Part shown: one piece after another, positions 50,979-64,000 of the stretch
How positions within the stretch are numbered: position 1 is the stretch's first letter
How the letters are laid out: the number at the start of each line of letters is the position of its first letter
NCBI GenBank assembly: GCA_012797815.1
Contig: JAAZOK010000171.1
Coordinates: 1-64,000 of the forward strand
Length of the DNA: 64,000 nt
Direction of reading: 5' to 3'
DNA from: Chloroflexota bacterium
GTDB lineage: Bacteria; Chloroflexota; Anaerolineae; Anaerolineales; Anaerolineaceae
Program-made: the position numbers and the translations under genes
Notes under the pieces: generated by a model
Database searches by the model: none
Seen by the model: only the letters and a program-made list of their open reading frames with translations
Told to the model about the DNA's origin: nothing

Positions 50979-51108
50979 TTAAAATAGTTTTGTGGAGTAA
51001 TAGCGATCGGTGGTGAGTTTAGACTTTCCGCCGGTCGCTCTCAAAAAAGATCCTTTGAATAAAACTGAAATAGCAGTGAATAAATATGTTCAACCTGAGA
51101 GTAAAAAA

Positions 51109-52005
51109 ATGATGAAAACTAATAAATCTCACAATCGAAAACTTCCGGCAATCATTTTTTTACTTCCCGGTTTTGTACTGTTCTTTGTGTTTTTTCTTGG
51201 ACCGTTGCTTTATTCTTTTCGAATCAGTTTTTTTGACTGGAATTTCGTCCATCCTGACCGCTCGGTGTTTGTGGGGCTCAAGAATTATATCGACCAACTG
51301 AAAAGCCCTATTTTTCAGAGGGCTGTAATCAACACGGCGCTCTATACTGTTATATCGGTTGTTATCAAGATGGTACTTGGCTTTTTTGTCGCGGTATTGC
51401 TGAACCAAAAATTACGTGGTCGAACCTTCTTCAGAGTATCCTATTATTTACCGGTCATCACGAGTTGGGTAATCGTCTCATTGTTATTTACCTATATGTG
51501 TAGTGGGCAGGGGGGATTAGTTAATTATTTCTTGAAAGATGTGCTGCATGTGATTGACAAGAACATCATGTGGCTGGCTGACCCCGTTCTGGCGCTGGTG
51601 CCGGTAGTTCTTTCCGACATCTGGAAGGGAGTAGGGTGGACGGCGCTTATCTTCTTATCCGGTTTGCAAGCTATCCCTGTCGAGATGGTTGAAGCGGCTG
51701 CTGTTGATGGCGCGAATTGGTGGAATCGATTGATAAAAATAATATTACCTATGATGCGTAGTACCCTGGTTTTCTTGTTGGTGGTACAAGTTTTGGGTGG
51801 TTTGAATGCATATGTCTCTTTCCAATTAATCACTGGTGGCGATCCGATGGACCAAACCCACTCCATACTCACGTTGATGTATCGGGCAACTTTTGAGCGT
51901 TTGGATTTTGGCGGTGGTGCAGCCATTAGCTACTTACTTACCATGTTTGTCTTTGCTCTAAGTATCATTCAATTGAAATTACTCCGAAAACCGGCGGGAG
52001 AATAA
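51109..52005 (+). CDS. ABC sugar transporter permease (MalF-like)
   Basis: 298 residues with six membrane helices. The EAA loop is VEAAAVDGANWWNRLIKIILPMM. The start is set at the double Met (51109/51112) just before the first helix (LPAIIFLLPGFVLFFVFF), preceded by GAGAG; the frame is open from 51010 but the extra 33 residues do not look like the family. One base separates it from the second permease. Confidence 0.87.
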   Translation: MMKTNKSHNRKLPAIIFLLPGFVLFFVFFLGPLLYSFRISFFDWNFVHPDRSVFVGLKNYIDQLKSPIFQRAVINTALYTVISVVIKMVLGFFVAVLLNQKLRGRTFFRVSYYLPVITSWVIVSLLFTYMCSGQGGLVNYFLKDVLHVIDKNIMWLADPVLALVPVVLSDIWKGVGWTALIFLSGLQAIPVEMVEAAAVDGANWWNRLIKIILPMMRSTLVFLLVVQVLGGLNAYVSFQLITGGDPMDQTHSILTLMYRATFERLDFGGGAAISYLLTMFVFALSIIQLKLLRKPAGE

Positions 52006-52006
52006 A

Positions 52007-52840
52007 ATGAAACGCTCACGGTCTTTATCCAAAATATTGTCTTACATAGTATTAGGACTCGGATTGGTGATTGTAGCAATCCCGTTCTGGTATATGATTT
52101 CGACTGCTTTCAAACCACAAACAATGGTGTTTGAACTACCACCACAGATATGGCCAAATCCTTCAACACTTAATAACTTTGTTAAAGCACTGACCACAGA
52201 TAGGTTTGGTCTTTATTTTTTGAATAGCACCAAGGTTACGATCATTTCTACCTTCTTAACAGTATTGATCAGTTCCATGCTGGCATTTGCTTTTGCACGA
52301 TTAAACTTCAAATTTAAGGAACCACTCTTTTATTTGTTGTTACTGGGAATGATGGTTCCTCCTGTTATGCTGATCATTCCGCAGTTTGTCATCAGCCACT
52401 GGTTGAATCTTTATAATAATTTATGGGGGTTGATCCTTGTTTATATAACAATGAATATTTCCATGCAGACTTTCTTACTGCGAGGAGTTTTTGAAAGTGT
52501 TCCTAAAGATCTGGAAGAAGCGGCCATGATTGATGGTGGTAGCCCCTGGACAATTTTTACTAAAATTGTTTTGCCGCTTTCTCGCCCAGGGTTGGCTGTT
52601 GTGACGATCAACTCGTTCTTATACTCTTGGGAGGAATATTCCTGGGCAAATGTAAACATTGGCGATGCTGCCAATCGCACCTTACCGATAGGTATTGCAT
52701 TGTTCCAGACCGAACATCTGACAGAGTGGGGGCAGGTGTTTGCAGCTTCACTTGTGGCATTAGTTCCGGTAGTGATTATTTTCATTGTTTTTCAAAGATA
52801 TTTTGTTCAGGGAATTTCTACAACAGGAATAAAAGGTTAA
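52007..52840 (+). CDS. ABC sugar transporter permease (MalG-like)
   Basis: 277 residues, six membrane helices, with the EAA loop LEEAAMIDGGSPWTIFTKIVLP. Paired with the MalF-like permease and the binding protein. The ATPase subunit is not encoded here; such systems often share a general MsmK/MalK-type ATPase. Its last base is shared with the first base of the GH66 start (TAATG). Confidence 0.92.
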   Translation: MKRSRSLSKILSYIVLGLGLVIVAIPFWYMISTAFKPQTMVFELPPQIWPNPSTLNNFVKALTTDRFGLYFLNSTKVTIISTFLTVLISSMLAFAFARLNFKFKEPLFYLLLLGMMVPPVMLIIPQFVISHWLNLYNNLWGLILVYITMNISMQTFLLRGVFESVPKDLEEAAMIDGGSPWTIFTKIVLPLSRPGLAVVTINSFLYSWEEYSWANVNIGDAANRTLPIGIALFQTEHLTEWGQVFAASLVALVPVVIIFIVFQRYFVQGISTTGIKG

Positions 52841-54459
52841 TGGATATGGCATTGATAGATAAATTGAAGAGTTTTAAGATAACACCTGATCGTGCATTCT
52901 ATCACCCGGGTGAAGTTGTGCGTCTTATCGTTTCTGTTGAGGCTTCAAAGGCAATGGATCTGGATCTTGATGTAAAAATTTATCGTGGGCTTGAATTAAT
53001 CGAAACGATAAATCGAACCTGGAATATAGGTGTTGGGCAGAATCAACTTTACTTACTATGGCAGCCAGATCGAGAAAATCCGGTAGGATATGGGGTTGAT
53101 GCTTCCTTAAGCGAAAGCGATGGAAAGAGCGACGCTATTTCTTGCCAGACTGCTTTTGATGTTCTCATTGATTGGACGGTTTTCCCGCGGTATGGCTTTG
53201 TTAGTGATTTTTCTCCTTCTCGAGCGAATGTTGAAGAAACCATCGAGACACTTAACCAATTTCACTTGAACGGATTGCAGTTCTATGACTGGCTGTATCG
53301 TCACGAAATGCTGATTCCGCCTAAAGCAGAATTTGTTGACCCTTTGGATCGACCGCTCTCACTGAAAATAATAAAGGAATTGATTAATGCTGCCCATAAA
53401 TATGGCATGAAGGCGACGCCGTATTTAGCGGTTTATGCTGCCTCGATTCCTTTCTGGAAATCGCATCCTGATTGGGTGCTCTATGATCAGGACCATCATC
53501 CGATTCCTTTTGGAAATGAGTATCTGGGAATTATGAATCCGGTGGGTGGGGGCGAGTGGAGTGAACATTTGCTCAAAGAGTGCGACTACGTTTTGACGCA
53601 ACTACCTTTTGATGGATTGCATATTGATCAGTACGGTGATCCAAAAAGCGGTTATGATGCCAATGGTTTGCCTGTGGATATCCCCAGTGCGTTTGCTGCT
53701 TTCATCAATGCTGCTGTCCAACAGAATCCAGATGTGCCGGTGGTATTCAATGCAGTGGGTAACTGGCCTATTGAAACTTTAGCGAAAACCCCCGTGGCTT
53801 TTAATTACATCGAAATCTGGCCTCCCAAAACCCGCTATATGGATGTTGCTGAAATTGTTCGCAATGCGCGCAGGCTTTCCGGACAGAAACCGGTGGTCAT
53901 TGCCCTTTATCTTCATGCAATTAATCCTATTAATAACCTTCTGGCTGACGCCATGATTTTTTCGGCTGGCGGAACACGCATCGAATTGGGAGAGAATGGT
54001 AGATTGCTTTCGGACCCATATTTCCCCAAGCATGAAGCAATGGATACAAGTTTAAGTGAGCGTCTGCGGCGGCAACTTGAATTGATCATTCGCTATGAAG
54101 AATGGATCAGCCCATTGATCGAAGAGAGCGATTTAGCGCCTGTAAAAGGACCGGAGGGAATTGAACATTTCTTTAGAAAGACGGAAAAAGGTTATTCCTT
54201 ATGTCAGGTAAATCTTGGCAGCTTACAACCTTTGCATTGGAATGAGGAGCATCCGAGCCCTGAGGCTAAACGAAATTTCACGCTGGAAATACAATTGGAG
54301 GAGCCAATTGAGCATATCTGGCTGGTTTCACCCGACCATGCCTCGCTTTCTCCGGTTCCTGTAGAATTCGAATCTATCTCGAACAAAGTGATTATAAAGG
54401 TTCCATCGCTTGAAATATGGAATGTTCTCTTTTTTGAGATGAAGAAGACAAAACGTTAA
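52840..54459 (+). CDS. GH66 dextranase/cycloisomaltooligosaccharide glucanotransferase-like enzyme
   Basis: 539 residues, without a signal peptide. N-terminal beta domain (about 15-110), then a GH66-type barrel (about 115-440): PRYGFVSDFSP, LQFYDWLYRHEMLIPP, GLHIDQYGDPK (candidate nucleophile Asp) and NYIEIWPPK (candidate acid/base Glu), then a C-terminal beta domain. GH66 enzymes cut or cyclise alpha-1,6-glucans and are usually secreted and longer. The short, signal-less form suggests action on imported oligosaccharides. The start may be 52840 (TAATG overlap) or 52846 (better SD spacing). Confidence 0.82.
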   Translation: MDMALIDKLKSFKITPDRAFYHPGEVVRLIVSVEASKAMDLDLDVKIYRGLELIETINRTWNIGVGQNQLYLLWQPDRENPVGYGVDASLSESDGKSDAISCQTAFDVLIDWTVFPRYGFVSDFSPSRANVEETIETLNQFHLNGLQFYDWLYRHEMLIPPKAEFVDPLDRPLSLKIIKELINAAHKYGMKATPYLAVYAASIPFWKSHPDWVLYDQDHHPIPFGNEYLGIMNPVGGGEWSEHLLKECDYVLTQLPFDGLHIDQYGDPKSGYDANGLPVDIPSAFAAFINAAVQQNPDVPVVFNAVGNWPIETLAKTPVAFNYIEIWPPKTRYMDVAEIVRNARRLSGQKPVVIALYLHAINPINNLLADAMIFSAGGTRIELGENGRLLSDPYFPKHEAMDTSLSERLRRQLELIIRYEEWISPLIEESDLAPVKGPEGIEHFFRKTEKGYSLCQVNLGSLQPLHWNEEHPSPEAKRNFTLEIQLEEPIEHIWLVSPDHASLSPVPVEFESISNKVIIKVPSLEIWNVLFFEMKKTKR

Positions 54460-54486
54460 TCGTTTTTATGTAGGAGCAGGTACTTG

Positions 54487-55629
54487 ATGGATTGTTATCG
54501 TCGAAGCATCGAAGTGATTTTACAAAACCAACACAGCAGTGGTTCGTATGTTGCCAGCCCGAATTTTCCAACTTACCATTATTGTTGGTTGCGCGATGGC
54601 AGTTTTATTGCCCACGCTATGGATAGAGCGGGAGAATTTACCAGTGCTGAAGCATTTTACCGCTGGGTGGGACGTACCATCCAAAAGTATGGCGATAAAG
54701 TAGAGGATATCAGACAGCGTTTAGATTCTGGTTTGCCTTTTGGCAAGGATGATGTGCTGCATACACGCTATACATTGGATGGTGAGGAAGTGACAGTGGA
54801 CAGTGCCTGGGGAAATTTTCAAATTGATGGGTACGGCACATGGTTGTGGGCATTGGCAGAGCATGTCCGGTTCAGTGGAAATGCTGTTCTGTTAAAAGAC
54901 CTGATTGAACCAATTCGTATTACTCTGCAATATCTGGATCTTGTCTGGCAACTCCCGAATTATGATTGCTGGGAAGAACACCCAGAATATCTTCATTTAT
55001 ATTCGTTGACAACCGTGTTTGCCGGGTTTAATTCTATAGCTTGCCTGCAGGAAAAAGGCTTGATCCCCGAGAGCGGAATTCCTTTGCGCAAGAAGGCAGA
55101 GCAAATAAAGGAATTTTTACTGAAATATGCTGTTTTTGATGGGAAAATGGTGAAACATATCTGGCCAGCCCGCAATGCAAAACCTCCCCAACCAATTCCT
55201 CAAAGTGGAGTGGATGCCAGCTTAATCGGTATAGCTGTTCCATATCGAGTTCTGACATTGGATGATCCATTGGTAAAAAAAACAATTCAAACCATTGAAT
55301 CCGATTTGCTCCGGCCAGGTGGAGGAGTATATCGTTATAAAGCTGATGTTTATTATGGGGGAGGCGAATGGATCCTCTTAACTGCCTGGTTAGGTTGGTA
55401 CTATGTTCAGATTGGCAAAATAGACGAAGCAAAGAAACTGATCGCATGGATCGAATCTCAAGCCAGTGGTGAGGGCTTTTTGCCTGAACAGGTGAATAGT
55501 CATACCCTTTCGCCAGAACACTATGAACCATGGTTGAGGAAATGGGGACCGGTCGCATCACCGCTGCTGTGGTCTCATGCGATGTATATCATCCTTATTA
55601 ATGAAATAAAACAGACACAGGCGAAATAA
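54487..55629 (+). CDS. GH15-like glucoamylase/glucodextranase-type hydrolase
   Basis: 380 residues with the alpha/alpha six-barrel of GH15. Landmarks: YHYCWLRDGSFIAHAMDRAG, SAWGNFQIDGYGTWLWALAEH and ASGEGFLPEQVNSH late in the protein, where the catalytic Glu of GH15 is expected (PEQ). No N-terminal beta domain of bacterial glucoamylases and no signal peptide. It starts 28 bp after GH66 with AGGAG upstream of the ATG. It probably releases glucose from oligosaccharides, preferring alpha-1,6 if the locus handles dextran. Confidence 0.82.
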   Translation: MDCYRRSIEVILQNQHSSGSYVASPNFPTYHYCWLRDGSFIAHAMDRAGEFTSAEAFYRWVGRTIQKYGDKVEDIRQRLDSGLPFGKDDVLHTRYTLDGEEVTVDSAWGNFQIDGYGTWLWALAEHVRFSGNAVLLKDLIEPIRITLQYLDLVWQLPNYDCWEEHPEYLHLYSLTTVFAGFNSIACLQEKGLIPESGIPLRKKAEQIKEFLLKYAVFDGKMVKHIWPARNAKPPQPIPQSGVDASLIGIAVPYRVLTLDDPLVKKTIQTIESDLLRPGGGVYRYKADVYYGGGEWILLTAWLGWYYVQIGKIDEAKKLIAWIESQASGEGFLPEQVNSHTLSPEHYEPWLRKWGPVASPLLWSHAMYIILINEIKQTQAK

Positions 55630-58247: not shown

Positions 58248-59198
58248 TCAGCGAAGGTGGTTCATGATCATGCGCGCGGCAGAGTCATCGGTGACCAGAA
58301 TTTTCATGTAGTGCCCTTGGAGGGCAGCGCGAATGGAGCTGGCTTTGTTTTCTCCACCTGCCACGGCGATCATGTATGGTATCTCGCGCTGTAAATGCAA
58401 CCCCAATCCGATCACCCGTTCGTTCATTTCTGTGTTGATGATCTCTCCGTCTTTGCCATAGAAATATGCACCCATGTGACCGACGGCACCCTGCCTGCGC
58501 AGATCAGCCCATTCGCGATTGGAGATGTAGTTGATCCAGATCGGGCTGGGAGTATCTTCGTTCATCCCCCCGATCCCGCACAACCCGATACGGGCAGATT
58601 GAGATAATTTGATGGTCTCTTGAAAACGGATCTGGTTGACCAGTGATTCTTTGGCGATCTTATCGCTCACCACCAGTGGAGCCAGCAGGTAGCGATATTT
58701 CCCGCCATACTTGTCACTCAGTAAACGAACCAGGTCGGGTCCGTCGATGAAAGGGTTTTCCACTCCCAGCGCTCCGATCATTTGCACCACCGTGATGTTC
58801 AATTTCCGTTCAGGATGCAGCGCTTGAATGGTGCTGGCAACTGTTCTACCATATGAACAGGAGATGATGTCTCCATCCACGATCAGGGAATCAAGGTATT
58901 CGGCGGCAAAGAATCCCAACCCCTTCAATACTTCTTCGATTTTCTGGTTATATGATTTTAAAACGCGCACTTCTTTAAGATCAAAATTCTTTTGAAATTC
59001 TTCTTCCAGTGTGTAATCGCGCTCAAAGGGGTAGTTTAATTTAATATCGACGATCCCACATTCGCGCGCTTCTTTTAGTAGTCGCGAAACAGTAGGGCGC
59101 GAAGAATGGATGATCAGCCCGATCTCTGCTTGAGTTTTGCCCTGCTCATAATAAAGTTTGGCTACCTGAAAAAGCAAATCATTATATTCTTTCGACAT
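58248..59198 (-). CDS. SorC/DeoR family transcriptional regulator
   Basis: 316 residues: N-terminal helix-turn-helix (about 18-50, KTQAEIGLIIHSSRPTVSRLLKEAR) and a C-terminal sugar-phosphate-binding SorC domain (about 60-316), with CSYGRTVASTIQAL and AVAGGENKASSIRAALQG landmarks. It follows the HAD gene by 14 bp on the same strand and faces the divergent PTS operon, so it likely controls it with a sugar phosphate as ligand. Confidence 0.92.
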   Translation of the reverse strand: MSKEYNDLLFQVAKLYYEQGKTQAEIGLIIHSSRPTVSRLLKEARECGIVDIKLNYPFERDYTLEEEFQKNFDLKEVRVLKSYNQKIEEVLKGLGFFAAEYLDSLIVDGDIISCSYGRTVASTIQALHPERKLNITVVQMIGALGVENPFIDGPDLVRLLSDKYGGKYRYLLAPLVVSDKIAKESLVNQIRFQETIKLSQSARIGLCGIGGMNEDTPSPIWINYISNREWADLRRQGAVGHMGAYFYGKDGEIINTEMNERVIGLGLHLQREIPYMIAVAGGENKASSIRAALQGHYMKILVTDDSAARMIMNHLR

Positions 59199-59212
59199 TG
59201 TTCATCCTGCTT

Positions 59213-59881
59213 TCATCTCTTATTCAAGATTGTTGAAATGGTTGCGATGGTCAGATCTGCAACAGCCCCTACTACCACATCTGCACGGGCGAGTTTTTCG
59301 GGTGGGTGGGTGCTGGCGATGGCGACACACTTCATTCCGGCTTTTTTTGCACCTTCGATGCCCAGAATGCTATCTTCAATTACCAGGCAGTTGGCAGGTC
59401 GTAGCTTCAGTGCTGTTGCTGCTGCCAGGTAAGCTTCTGGATTGCGCTTGCTTGCCATCTTTGCCGTGGAAATGATCTGGTCAAAGTAAGGGCGTAGCGT
59501 ACTCAACTGCATGACCGTTGCGATATTTTCCACCGGAGCTGATGACGCAATGGCTTGTTTAAAGCCAACTGCCTGGCAATCCTTCAATATTTCAATGACT
59601 CCCTGATATAGCTTGAAATCCTTTTTAAGGGTGTTCCGATAGATCTCTTCCTTTTGCCGGGAGATCGCCTCTAATGTGCTCCGGTCAAGTTTTTCTCCAA
59701 AGATTTCAGAAAGCAAAGAATCGTTGTTTATCCCGAATGTATCGTCGAAATATTGTCTGGTGAAATCTACTTTGTAAGGAGAGAGCGCTTGTTGCCAGGC
59801 ATGGAAATGGGCATCGGCGGTATCGACCAGCACACCATCCATATCCCAAATGATTCCAACAGTATTCAGTGCATCTGTCAT
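59213..59881 (-). CDS. HAD family phosphatase/beta-phosphoglucomutase-like
   Basis: 222 residues: WDMDGVLVDTADAHFHAW (motif I with the nucleophile Asp and the general acid Asp), SSAPVEN (motif II), KRNPEAYLAAATAL (motif III Lys) and VIEDSILGIEGAKKAGMK (motif IV). The cap is helical (about 18-85), as in beta-phosphoglucomutase. First gene of a two-gene unit with sorC; could act on a sugar phosphate of the PTS pathway. Confidence 0.88.
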   Translation of the reverse strand: MTDALNTVGIIWDMDGVLVDTADAHFHAWQQALSPYKVDFTRQYFDDTFGINNDSLLSEIFGEKLDRSTLEAISRQKEEIYRNTLKKDFKLYQGVIEILKDCQAVGFKQAIASSAPVENIATVMQLSTLRPYFDQIISTAKMASKRNPEAYLAAATALKLRPANCLVIEDSILGIEGAKKAGMKCVAIASTHPPEKLARADVVVGAVADLTIATISTILNKR

Positions 59882-60036
59882 TCAATCATCTTCTTCTTCC
59901 GGTATTTTGTAATACAAAACTTAACGAAACGATCCGTGATCCTGAAATCCATTTATACACATTGTATTCAAAGATTTCAGCAGTGCCTATAAGCTTCGCC
60001 TTTTCGTGCACATATGTTCAATTATATGAAATTGTG

Positions 60037-60065
60037 TTGAATTAAGCAACCAAAAAAAATAAAAT
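60037..60065 (+). promoter_or_regulatory. Promoter of the PTS operon
   Basis: TTGAAT (60037-60042), a 17-bp spacer and TAAAAT (60060-60065), about 50 bp upstream of the phosphotriesterase-like start. The -35 lies in the right arm of an imperfect inverted repeat (TTCAA at 60017-60021 and TTGAA at 60037-60041), which may be the SorC operator. Confidence 0.55.
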
Positions 60066-60115
60066 TGTAAAGATTAGATTTTTATTAACAAAATAAGATA
60101 AGAAGGAAAATTCAA

Positions 60116-61081
60116 ATGGCTTTTATTCGTACTATTCATGGTGATATCAATGCAAAAGAAATGGGGGTAACCAATACCCATGAGCATTTGATTCGAATTG
60201 GCGGAGGGGAGGTGGCATTGCATGGAGAAGATATGCGCCTGCCTTTCGTTGATAAAGCAGTTGAAGAGGTAAAACGCTTTCAAGCAGCAGGAGGGAAAAC
60301 TATTGTCGATTGCAATCCCATCGGCGTTGGTAGAGACATTGTCAAATTGCTGGAAGTAAATGAACAGGTTCCCGATGTGAATCTGATCGTTACAACCGGA
60401 TTCCATTACTCACAGGTTTACGATAGAACGGTGCATTGGGTGGTGCGTTATTCGGTGGAAGAGATCGCTGATCTGCTCATCGCCGAGATCGAAGAGGGTA
60501 TTGATGAACATGATTACATGGGTCCAATCGTAAAGCGCAGCAAAGCCAAAGCAGGTTGTATTAAAGTCGGCACATCCTATGGCATGATCACTCCCTTCGA
60601 AGAAAAAGAGATAAAAGCAGCTGCCATTGCTGCCAAAGAAACCGGTGCGGTGATCAATACGCATACCACACACGGCACGATGGCGTTAGAACAGGTGCAA
60701 TGGTTCCTCAAACTGGGTGTCAACCCCGAACAAATTCTAATCGGACATGTGCAGCGCATCCCGGATGCCTGGTATCACAAAAAGATTGCCGCTCTGGGCG
60801 CCAGTTTCAGCTATGACGGCGGTTACCGTGTAAAGTATTGGCCAGACCGTTTCCGGGTTGAACTGATCCAGGAAATGATCAAAGCCGGTTATCAAAAACA
60901 TATTACTCTTTCTACCGATTCGGGGAAAAAATCCTATCAAAAAGCGTACGGTGCCGGAACGGGTGTGGATTATGACCTGGTGGAATTTGTGCCGCGCCTG
61001 CGCGAAGAAGGAGTATCGGAAAGTGCGCTTGAAGATATTTTGGTAAATAATCCAGCGCGATTATTCACGCTAAAGAAATAA
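60116..61081 (+). CDS. Phosphotriesterase-family hydrolase, candidate phospho-lactonase
   Basis: 321 residues of the amidohydrolase PTE family. Metal ligands: THEHL near the N-terminus, the carboxylated Lys in CIKVGTSYG, NTHTTHG and IGHVQR, and the fifth Asp in LSTDSG. Characterised members of this subgroup hydrolyse furanose lactone 5-phosphates; others are true phosphotriesterases or acylhomoserine lactonases. The start of an ascorbate-type PTS operon suggests lactonase, taking the place of UlaG. Ribosome site AAGGA. Confidence 0.85.
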   Translation: MAFIRTIHGDINAKEMGVTNTHEHLIRIGGGEVALHGEDMRLPFVDKAVEEVKRFQAAGGKTIVDCNPIGVGRDIVKLLEVNEQVPDVNLIVTTGFHYSQVYDRTVHWVVRYSVEEIADLLIAEIEEGIDEHDYMGPIVKRSKAKAGCIKVGTSYGMITPFEEKEIKAAAIAAKETGAVINTHTTHGTMALEQVQWFLKLGVNPEQILIGHVQRIPDAWYHKKIAALGASFSYDGGYRVKYWPDRFRVELIQEMIKAGYQKHITLSTDSGKKSYQKAYGAGTGVDYDLVEFVPRLREEGVSESALEDILVNNPARLFTLKK

Positions 61082-61168
61082 GCAAAGGAGGAGGTGTCGT
61101 ATTATTAAAAATTATGTGTTGTTTAAGAAACTCTGTTTTTAATTTATAAATAAACTGGAGAATTTTTG

Positions 61169-62485
61169 ATGAATACTTTTAATGTTTTTTTTAGTGGTTT
61201 TAGCGCATTCATGGCACAGCCGGCTTTGTTGCTCGGTTTGGTGGCAGCCATTGGCTTGATTGCATTAAAGAAACCGTTCACCCGAGTTCTATCTGGCTTT
61301 ATAAAAACTGCTGTGGGTGTTTTAATCTTGTCAGTAGGTTCAGGTCAAATTACATCTACTTTTCGCCCAATTATTGTGGGTATGAAAGATGTTCTCGGTA
61401 TTGAGGGTGTGATCATTGATCCATACACAACCCTTCCTGCGGTTCAAGCAGCTGCTTCGGAACAGATCCCTGAATTACTTTCATGGGTGGGTTATGTTAT
61501 GGTATTGGCATTTCTATTCAATATTTTATTAGTTGCCTTGCGTAAGATTACAAGAATCCGTGCTCTATTCTTGACTGGTCATATTATGTTCTTGCAAGCC
61601 TCTTTAATGACTTGGTTGGTCTGGTATTTCTTCCAGCTTCCTCAATGGCCTACAATTTTAATTTCAGCTGCACTGGTTGGTCTTTATTGGTCAATCGGAG
61701 CAACGATAAATATTAAACCGACAGAAATTCTTACAAATGGAGCTGGTTTTACTGTGGCTCATCAACAGCATTTTATGAACTGGGTGGCATGGAAGGTCGC
61801 GCATTTATTTGGAGATCCAGAGAAAGAAAATATTGATACTCTTAAATTACCGGGCTGGTTAAGCATTTTCTCTCAAGATAACGTTGTCACCGTCCCGTTG
61901 ATTATGCTAATTTTCTTTACTCCAATTTTGATATGGCTTGGTCCCCAGGCACTTGGCCATGAATCTTTCACATTTAACTATATTATTAGTATGCTGATTC
62001 TAGAATTACAATTTGGCGTATTTGTTACGATTATTCTTACAGGTGTGAGAATGTTTGTAGCAGAATTGGCAGTATCTTTCAATGGAATTTCCGAAAAATT
62101 ATTGCCAGGTGCTGTCATTGGAGTTGACGGAATGGCAGTTGCTCCCTACTCACCAAACTCTGTCGTTATGGGGTTCGTTTGCGCAGCCATCGGTGAGGCA
62201 ATTGGAGTAATTATTTTGATTGTAACAAAGTCTCCCATTTTGATAATTCCTGGTTTTTGCCCCGTGTTTTTTGATGCTGCTATCACAGCCGTGTTTGCCA
62301 ACAAGTTTGGTGGTTGGAAAGCCGTTGTCGTAATATCGCTATTTGTCGGTTTGCTTCAGGTATTTGGGAGTGCCTGGGCAGCTAGCATGTCCGGTTTGGT
62401 TGGTGGATGGCAGGGTTGTACAGACTTCTCAACAATATGGCCTGCATTGATGACGGTCATGAAAGCAATTTCACCATTACACTAA
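61169..62485 (+). CDS. PTS EIIC component, ascorbate-type (UlaA/SgaT-like)
   Basis: 438 residues with about ten to eleven membrane segments, of the UlaA/SgaT (AG superfamily) type. Typical segments are visible: FSGFSAFMAQPALLLGLVAAIGLI (split by Pro), LTGHIMFLQASLMTWL and AEL-rich VSFNGISEKLLPGAVIGVDGMA. The start ATG (61169) is preceded by CTGGAGA; a TTG one codon before is unlikely. Carries and, with IIB/IIA, phosphorylates a substrate of the L-ascorbate type. Confidence 0.88.
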   Translation: MNTFNVFFSGFSAFMAQPALLLGLVAAIGLIALKKPFTRVLSGFIKTAVGVLILSVGSGQITSTFRPIIVGMKDVLGIEGVIIDPYTTLPAVQAAASEQIPELLSWVGYVMVLAFLFNILLVALRKITRIRALFLTGHIMFLQASLMTWLVWYFFQLPQWPTILISAALVGLYWSIGATINIKPTEILTNGAGFTVAHQQHFMNWVAWKVAHLFGDPEKENIDTLKLPGWLSIFSQDNVVTVPLIMLIFFTPILIWLGPQALGHESFTFNYIISMLILELQFGVFVTIILTGVRMFVAELAVSFNGISEKLLPGAVIGVDGMAVAPYSPNSVVMGFVCAAIGEAIGVIILIVTKSPILIIPGFCPVFFDAAITAVFANKFGGWKAVVVISLFVGLLQVFGSAWAASMSGLVGGWQGCTDFSTIWPALMTVMKAISPLH

Positions 62486-62561
62486 ATCTCTGCTCATTTG
62501 AAAGCAAAATATTTATTGGTAAATTTTAGATAGTTTATAAGTACGAAATAATGAGCAGGCA

Positions 62562-62595
62562 CGCTCCTGGATAGAATTAATCTTATCCAGGAGCG
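62562..62595 (+). other. Intercistronic hairpin between EIIC and EIIB
   Basis: A perfect 12-bp stem CGCTCCTGGATA / TATCCAGGAGCG with a 10-base loop. It is followed by GGAAAAAATAC and not a T-tract, so probably protects or processes the mRNA and sets EIIC/EIIB ratios. Confidence 0.65.
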
Positions 62596-62631
62596 GAAAA
62601 AATACAAAGAATTGAGGAGATAAATAAACCA

Positions 62632-62940
62632 ATGCTTAAAATATTAGCAGTTTGTGGCAATGGACAAGGCTCGAGTGTAGTACTGCGGTTGGGATTGGAG
62701 CCAGCGCTAGACGAACTTGGATTAAAAGATACATCAATAGAGTGTACATCATTAGGGCAAGCTCAGAGTCTGCTGCAATTTGTAGACCTGATAATAATCC
62801 CCAGTCATCTTGCTGAATTGTTAGATATTCCAAAAGGGAAACCTCTTGTGAAAGTAAATAATTTAATTAATAAAAATGAAGTAAAAGAAGGTGTAACCAA
62901 GGCTCTTGAGGAATATTATCCTGAACTTCTTAAGAAATAA
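62632..62940 (+). CDS. PTS EIIB component, ascorbate/lactose-type (UlaB-like)
   Basis: 102 residues: phospho-Cys in VCGNGQGSS (about residue 8), followed by an alpha/beta P-loop-like fold of the UlaB/SgaB group. It transfers phosphate from EIIA to the sugar. Lies between EIIC and EIIA. Confidence 0.9.
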   Translation: MLKILAVCGNGQGSSVVLRLGLEPALDELGLKDTSIECTSLGQAQSLLQFVDLIIIPSHLAELLDIPKGKPLVKVNNLINKNEVKEGVTKALEEYYPELLKK

Positions 62941-63075
62941 TATTTCATAATTAGCTTAATTGTATTAAGCAATCAATCAGATAAGCAGTTGAATAATTTA
63001 TTTACTTCTTCTGATAGGAAGAAATCTGTTCACTCATCAAAATTTAAAGGTAGAAAGATAATTTTCGGAGAAAAT

Positions 63076-63537
63076 ATGCGCGATCTAAGAGATATGCTCA
63101 CTGAAAAAACGGTCAAATTGAATACCACCGTATCTGACTGGAAAGAAGCTGTGCGTGTTGGTGGGAACATGCTGGTGGACGTGAAAGCCTGTAAACCCGA
63201 ATACGTGGATGCCATGGTGCGTTTTGCAGAAGAATTGGGTCCTTATATTGTCATCGGAAAGGGCTTGGCATTACCTCACGCACGACCTGAAGAGGGCGTG
63301 CTCGAAACCTGCTTCAGTTTAGTGACTCTTTCAGAACCCATTGAGTTCGGTAACGAATATAACGACCCGGTCTATGTCGTTTTTTGCATGGCAGCTCGCG
63401 ATAAGGATGAGCATATTGAAGCGCTGCGCCAGATTGCCAATCTATGTGGTGATGAGTTTTATTTTGAAAAGATAAAAACTGCGCAAACTCTTGAAGATAT
63501 TCAAGCACTTTTAGAGAAGGCAGGCGATCTTAAATAG
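63076..63537 (+). CDS. PTS EIIA component, mannitol/fructose-ascorbate type (UlaC-like)
   Basis: 153 residues with the phospho-His in GLALPHARPEEGV (about residue 62). The fold is the EIIA-Man/Fru/Ntr type. Start at 63076 with GGAG five bases upstream; an in-frame TTG at 62989 adds a poorly conserved tail. It takes phosphate from HPr, which is not encoded in the window. Confidence 0.9.
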   Translation: MRDLRDMLTEKTVKLNTTVSDWKEAVRVGGNMLVDVKACKPEYVDAMVRFAEELGPYIVIGKGLALPHARPEEGVLETCFSLVTLSEPIEFGNEYNDPVYVVFCMAARDKDEHIEALRQIANLCGDEFYFEKIKTAQTLEDIQALLEKAGDLK

Positions 63538-63574
63538 CTCTCATTACAGTCCTAAATAGCAAAGGAGGATTTTT

Positions 63575-64000
63575 ATGGCTTCATCACGCCCATTGCTCCA
63601 GGTGGCACTTGATACAAAGGATCTCAATACGGCATTAAAGACGACCCGTCTTGTTTCCGACGTGGTGGATGTAATCGAAGTTGGAACTATATTATGTCTG
63701 GCAGAGGGATTGGGAGCGGTTACCTCGATCCGGACACTTTATCCGAATAAATTGATCCTGGCGGATGTACGTATAGCCGAAGCGGGTGCCATCATCGCCA
63801 AAATGGTGTTCGATGCGCAGGCGAACTGGGTTTCTATGCTCAGTTCAGCATCTCTAAGCACCATGGAAGCTGTGGCAGAAGAAGCGTTTTCGCGCGGAGG
63901 GGATGTTCAGGTAGAGTTGCAGGATGATTGGTCCCTGCAGAAAGCCAATGCCTGGCTTGCCTTGGGTATCAAACAGGTCACCATTCACCGCAGCCGGGAT
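63575..64000 (+). CDS. ulaD: 3-keto-L-gulonate-6-phosphate decarboxylase (UlaD-like), cut by the window edge
   Basis: The first 142 residues are seen. The N-terminus LLQVALDTKDLNTALKTT and the region VIEVGTILCLAEGLGAV match the UlaD/HPS group of the OMPDC superfamily. The Asp/Lys site reads ADVRIAEAG, where classical UlaD has ADAKIADAG; the catalytic Lys position is thus Arg, as in some family members with altered specificity. VTIHRSRD at the end is the phosphate-site region. A strong ribosome site AGGAGG precedes the ATG. It extends beyond 64000. Confidence 0.85.
   Translation, partial: MASSRPLLQVALDTKDLNTALKTTRLVSDVVDVIEVGTILCLAEGLGAVTSIRTLYPNKLILADVRIAEAGAIIAKMVFDAQANWVSMLSSASLSTMEAVAEEAFSRGGDVQVELQDDWSLQKANAWLALGIKQVTIHRSRD

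Follow-up and report, generated by a model that had tools for sequence, protein, structure and literature searches.

An ascorbate-type PTS operon whose first gene encodes a phosphotriesterase (PTE)-family protein raises the question of whether this protein stands in for UlaG, which in Escherichia coli performs the ring opening of L-ascorbate 6-phosphate, and of which sugar the operon serves. The window analysed, a stretch of 64,000 nucleotides, lies on a contig (C47) of a 2.72 Mb Anaerolineaceae draft genome of 179 contigs. This contig, of 79,873 bp, reaches beyond the window, and the remainder of the operon was readable there.

Organisation of the operon

Open reading frames and HMM matches bore out all of the genes named in the initial annotation, and reading past the window added the end of UlaD, UlaE, a second EIIC and UlaF, with no UlaG among them.

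58248-59198, minus strand: SorC/DeoR-family sugar-binding transcriptional regulator, divergent (PF04198, 213.8 bits)
59213-59881, minus strand: HAD-family phosphatase, beta-PGM/YqaB-like, divergent (PF13419, 113.8 bits)
60009-60042, plus strand: conserved promoter block CACATATGTTCAATTATATGAAATTGTGTTGAAT, kept in two sister genomes (L015 and L016), in which the flanks have diverged
60116-61081, plus strand: PTE-family phospho-lactonase at the UlaG position (PF02126, 168.9 bits against a cut-off of 22.4; closest solved structure 3MSR)
61169-62485, plus strand: EIIC-1, ascorbate (UlaA) type (PF03611, 321 bits; 43.6% identity to E. coli UlaA)
62632-62940, plus strand: EIIB, predicted active-site Cys in AVCGNGQGSS (PF02302; 30% identity to UlaB)
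63076-63537, plus strand: EIIA, predicted active-site His in LPHARPE (PF00359, 118.6 bits; 43% identity to UlaC); the ATG at 63076 is a better fit as start than the TTG upstream
63575-64231, plus strand, cut by the window end at 64000: UlaD, putative 3-keto-L-gulonate-6-phosphate decarboxylase with a DxRxxE motif (49% identity to E. coli UlaD)
64241-65083, plus strand, outside the window: UlaE-type 3-epimerase 
65092-66390, plus strand, outside the window: EIIC-2, between UlaE and UlaF
66406-67062, plus strand, outside the window: UlaF-type 4-epimerase, last gene of the operon

From the PTE lactonase to UlaF all of the genes lie on a single strand, in the order PTE lactonase, EIIC, EIIB, EIIA, UlaD, UlaE, second EIIC and UlaF, with intergenic gaps of 8-15 bp from UlaD to UlaF; a GGDEF gene on the opposite strand ends the operon. 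The ascorbate-type EIIC, EIIB and EIIA together with UlaD, UlaE and UlaF make up a complete ula set apart from UlaG. Chance or artefact could be ruled out, since three genomes of the genus share the operon, its order unchanged.

A search for ptsI and ptsH located the EI and HPr genes adjacent to each other elsewhere in the host genome, which rules out a missing general PTS. PTS loci had been thought unusual in Anaerolineae, a view not upheld here, EI being present in 82 of the 147 genomes of the Anaerolineaceae. Horizontal transfer of the operon is nevertheless possible, because few genomes of the phylum have UlaD (3 of the 400 sampled) and the distribution is patchy. The G+C content of the operon is no different from that of the contig, so that no foreign base composition was found, and no relative was detected among the viral contigs searched.

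Elsewhere in the window (51010-55629), genes for a pair of MalF/MalG-type ABC sugar permeases precede those of two glycoside hydrolase-like proteins; this group, recognised by eye, is probably a cluster for alpha-glucan utilisation.

A predicted PTE-family lactonase at the UlaG position

A query with E. coli UlaG returned nothing credible in the host genome, and a UlaG further downstream was ruled out, none being found on the contig or in the genome. The proposal that a PTE-family lactonase fills the UlaG slot of an ascorbate-type PTS operon is supported. All of the PTE-family metal ligands (HxH, K, H, H, D) are conserved in the window protein. Its closest solved relative is 3MSR, the Mycoplasma synoviae lactonase MS53_0025. 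At the positions that reportedly bind phosphate in MS53_0025, the window protein has R for K, K, Y, K for R, and Y, all of them kept or conservatively changed. It falls below the curated equivalog cut-off of the phospho-furanose lactonase model NF045706 (313.4 vs 630 bits).

The arrangement itself is already known in mycoplasmas. One study proposes that Ms0025 takes over from UlaG in such a pathway (PMC11092275), and a phosphotriesterase-like gene has been named as the likely missing UlaG in mycoplasma (PMC4866288). The substrates measured for Ms0025 and Mag6390 are, according to a review, D-xylono- and L-arabino-1,4-lactone 5-phosphate (PMC10971088). What PTE-family lactonases do in ula operons is thus in question, as the assays of the mycoplasma enzymes used pentonolactone phosphates, yet these enzymes belong to an ascorbate-like operon. 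The operon described here is a PTE-type ascorbate-like operon from a different phylum, and its decarboxylase belongs to a clade in which the suprafamily signature is broken.

A UlaD clade with a DxRxxE motif

The Arg noted initially in the UlaD sequence ADVRIAEAG, where Lys is usual, proved to be real; 21 genomes carry both R and E, which rules out a single-genome error. The change goes beyond that first observation, as K64R is accompanied by D67E, turning DxKxxD into DxRxxE. In the tabulated OMPDC, KGPDC and HPS structures, K and D occupy both signature positions (PMC5980557). The 21 sequences, from 4 Anaerolineaceae and 17 Actinomycetota genomes (one Mycobacterium among the latter), form a single clade with an SH-aLRT of 95 in a tree from which the K64 and D67 columns had both been removed. 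Few positions are fixed in the clade, and two of these are the catalytic K64R and D67E; His136 is replaced by Lys in some of the actinobacterial members.

The alignment shows that the window UlaD retains the KGPDC residues D11, E33, D62, E112, R139, T169 and R192. An HPS function is disfavoured, since E112, R139 and T169 are of KGPDC type and not the HPS-type D, hydrophobic residue and A. The protein scores above the cut-off of the KGPDC subfamily NF009832 (257.9 vs 250 bits) and under that of the stricter UlaD equivalog NF009831 (237.6 vs 294). The departure of this clade from the OMPDC-suprafamily DxKxxD at both ends bears on the need of the chemistry for Lys and Asp.

Another UlaD-like protein in this genome (G000:C158, L070 5698-6345) has a shortened DxKxxD region in which the second Asp is lost; in its vicinity are genes for SorC and an EIIC, and part of a PTE gene that is truncated where the contig stops.

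Linkage with the lactonase and alternation with UlaG

The PTE lactonase is encoded in the same cluster at 20 of the 21 DxRxxE UlaD loci, and UlaG is absent from 19 of the 20 PTE-bearing genomes; the exception, G080, has PTE and UlaG on one contig. The sole DxRxxE locus without PTE in its cluster, as judged from the cluster only, is that of G1007, where the divergent run of genes next to it encodes, together with ABC transporter proteins, a UlaG with 68% identity to the E. coli protein. PTE and UlaG alternate beside the same UlaD clade, and they seem to occupy one slot and to perform the same step. Although it rests on small numbers and on draft genomes of varied completeness, this alternation is the best evidence for such a shared step, and it offers independent genomic evidence that the PTE family is able to replace UlaG.

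The lactonase might instead be a side enzyme, for example one clearing damaged phospho-lactones, with the ring of ascorbate 6-phosphate opened spontaneously or by another hydrolase. Such a role would accommodate the joint presence of UlaG and this lactonase in G080, as well as the many kinds of PTS operon next to which the lactonase family is found in Anaerolineaceae. It appears highly improbable, however, as the lactonase gene opens the operon, accompanies the UlaD variant at nearly every locus (20 of 21), and is missing from the G1007 cluster, where UlaG is present.

The window protein is probably not a simple equivalent of the mycoplasma lactonase. In the lactonase tree, the DxKxxD-linked lactonases (mycoplasmas and G077) form one clade with full support, and the DxRxxE-linked lactonases are found in a different part, which weakens that equivalence. 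In G077, also of the Anaerolineaceae, a lactonase of the mycoplasma clade adjoins a DxKxxD UlaD (L062 8420-10053), with a UlaG locus elsewhere in the genome.

In Actinomycetota the usual cluster comprises SorC, PTE, UlaD, UlaE, UlaF, a PfkB kinase and an MFS transporter; its order varies, and UlaE or UlaF was not found in some of the stretches read. PTS genes were not found in the actinobacterial clusters read, and this MFS-plus-kinase version suggests that the same compound is used without a PTS. A further actinobacterial locus (G1135, L120 6583-10468) encodes a kinase-like protein, a DxKxxD UlaD, UlaE, UlaF and ABC-type permeases with no lactonase, and recalls the E. coli yia operon.

Substrate and proposed pathway

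The residues of UlaA that contact ascorbate have been described (PMC6048161). Most of these 11 contacts are kept or conservatively changed in the EIIC, with Y87, H135, H194, Q195, D314 and F362 retained and T86 replaced by P, as also in Pasteurella multocida UlaA. Q139 and M410 are altered, to L and C in EIIC-1 and to L and to C or N across both EIICs, and both copies are altered in three genomes, in all of which the second EIIC is conserved. Among the EIICs compared, those of mycoplasmas and those linked to UlaG retain both residues. The duplication of EIIC could reflect two related substrates.

The operon is probably one for L-ascorbate (vitamin C) utilisation through the PTS, in which the PTE lactonase would open the ring in the stead of UlaG. 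The substrate that we infer follows from the established E. coli ula pathway and its stereochemistry. Since UlaE and UlaF have been kept, the product of UlaD would be L-xylulose 5-phosphate and the compounds upstream of it 3-keto-L-gulonate 6-phosphate and L-ascorbate 6-phosphate; taken with the slot that PTE and UlaG seem to share, the two epimerases thus point to L-ascorbate 6-phosphate. The sugar would be imported and phosphorylated to L-ascorbate 6-phosphate by EIIB and EIIA, each present once, together with either or both of the EIICs, by way of the EI and HPr of the genome. The PTE-family protein, as a binuclear metal lactonase, would open the ring to give 3-keto-L-gulonate 6-phosphate, which the UlaD variant would decarboxylate to L-xylulose 5-phosphate. 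UlaE would then epimerise this to L-ribulose 5-phosphate, and UlaF would convert the latter to D-xylulose 5-phosphate, which enters the pentose phosphate pathway.

A sister genome, G117 (L016), bears on the intermediate. Its lactonase is 90% identical to that of the window and most of its other operon proteins are 80-94% identical, yet its UlaD (L016 8242-8898) is only 65% identical and groups with the UlaD of G080 (78%), the cluster of which has UlaG and a UlaA-like EIIC. UlaD has probably been replaced inside the G117 operon, and its exchange between both kinds of operon suggests that they share the same intermediate.

Several observations nonetheless count against ascorbate, and the initial annotation had proposed a different lactone or aldonic acid. 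If the substrate were, for example, another 3-keto-hexonolactone or else a pentonolactone, retuning would have affected all three of EIIC, lactonase and UlaD, and K64R and D67E would mark a changed decarboxylase. The altered Q139 and M410 contacts fit that proposal, as do the loss of the signature pair K64 and D67 among so few clade-fixed positions, the separation of the window lactonase from the clade of MS53_0025, and the pentonolactone 5-phosphates reported as substrates of the latter; the presence of PTE and UlaG on one contig in G080 also counts against the proposed ascorbate pathway. The proposal nevertheless loses ground, and is judged a lesser though appreciable possibility, as the retained UlaE and UlaF complete an L-xylulose 5-phosphate route and as PTE alternates with UlaG. 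Members of this UlaD clade are also found alongside a true UlaG in G1007 and, in G080, alongside UlaG and an EIIC in which Q139 and M410 are unchanged. A pentonate 5-phosphate, moreover, would present no 3-keto group to UlaD, and there is no dehydrogenase gene in the operon. Another idea is that the DxRxxE decarboxylase clade and its own PTE lactonase clade constitute a distinct, undescribed pathway, with PTS in Anaerolineaceae and with MFS and PfkB in Actinomycetota, whose substrate would be a lactone different from L-ascorbate or whose decarboxylase chemistry would be altered; this is considered unlikely.

Comparison with known systems

The ascorbate operon proposed here closely resembles the mycoplasma ula operon (MS53_0025/MAG_6390 type), with which it shares the order lactonase-EIIC-EIIB-EIIA-UlaD-UlaE-UlaF (followed by HAD in the three mycoplasma records), a PTE-family lactonase (41-45% identity), a HAD gene and, in the stretches read, the lack of UlaG. 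It differs in its separate lactonase clade, in having a DxRxxE instead of a DxKxxD UlaD, in SorC, in the second EIIC between ulaE and ulaF, and in the divergent position of the HAD gene. The EIIC/B/A, UlaD, UlaE and UlaF of E. coli ulaABCDEF are in matching order with 30-49% identity; the window operon, however, has a PTE-fold lactonase rather than the metallo-beta-lactamase-fold UlaG, SorC rather than UlaR, and a duplicate EIIC.

The Listeria locus L048 (Lmo2620 type) likewise has a PTE lactonase adjoining an EIIC-GAT family PTS, but no UlaD, UlaE or UlaF, and its EIIC is without most of the ascorbate contacts. The E. coli yia/sgb operon (lyxK, sgbH, sgbU, sgbE) shares the module of decarboxylase, 3-epimerase and 4-epimerase; unlike the window operon, it has no lactonase, a TRAP transporter, a kinase and a DxKxxD decarboxylase.

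Promoter, regulator and related loci

The SorC-type regulator and the HAD phosphatase are transcribed away from the operon, with a shared promoter region of 234 bp. Within the conserved promoter block lies a palindrome, TTCA-N6-TGAA (60017-60030), and this block is a candidate SorC operator on the basis of its conservation; the regulator may control the divergent promoter. This SorC-type protein is not the UlaR by which a ula operon would be recognised. At the actinobacterial DxRxxE loci, too, a SorC gene adjoins that of the lactonase or of UlaD, and HAD genes also occur within the ula operons of mycoplasmas and Aerococcus.

Two other loci of the same genome carry related lactonases. The first (G000:C153, L035 8861-15184) is a paralogous locus without UlaD that encodes a PTE lactonase (60% identity), EIIC/B/A, SorC, a BtpA/SgcQ-family protein and UlaE. 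The second (G000:C82, L036 8973-16566) combines a pair of differing PTE lactonases with two EIIC-GAT proteins, EIIA and EIIB, and also encodes a UlaF-like protein and a DeoR regulator. In this genus, loci of the lactonase-PTS kind seem to have multiplied.
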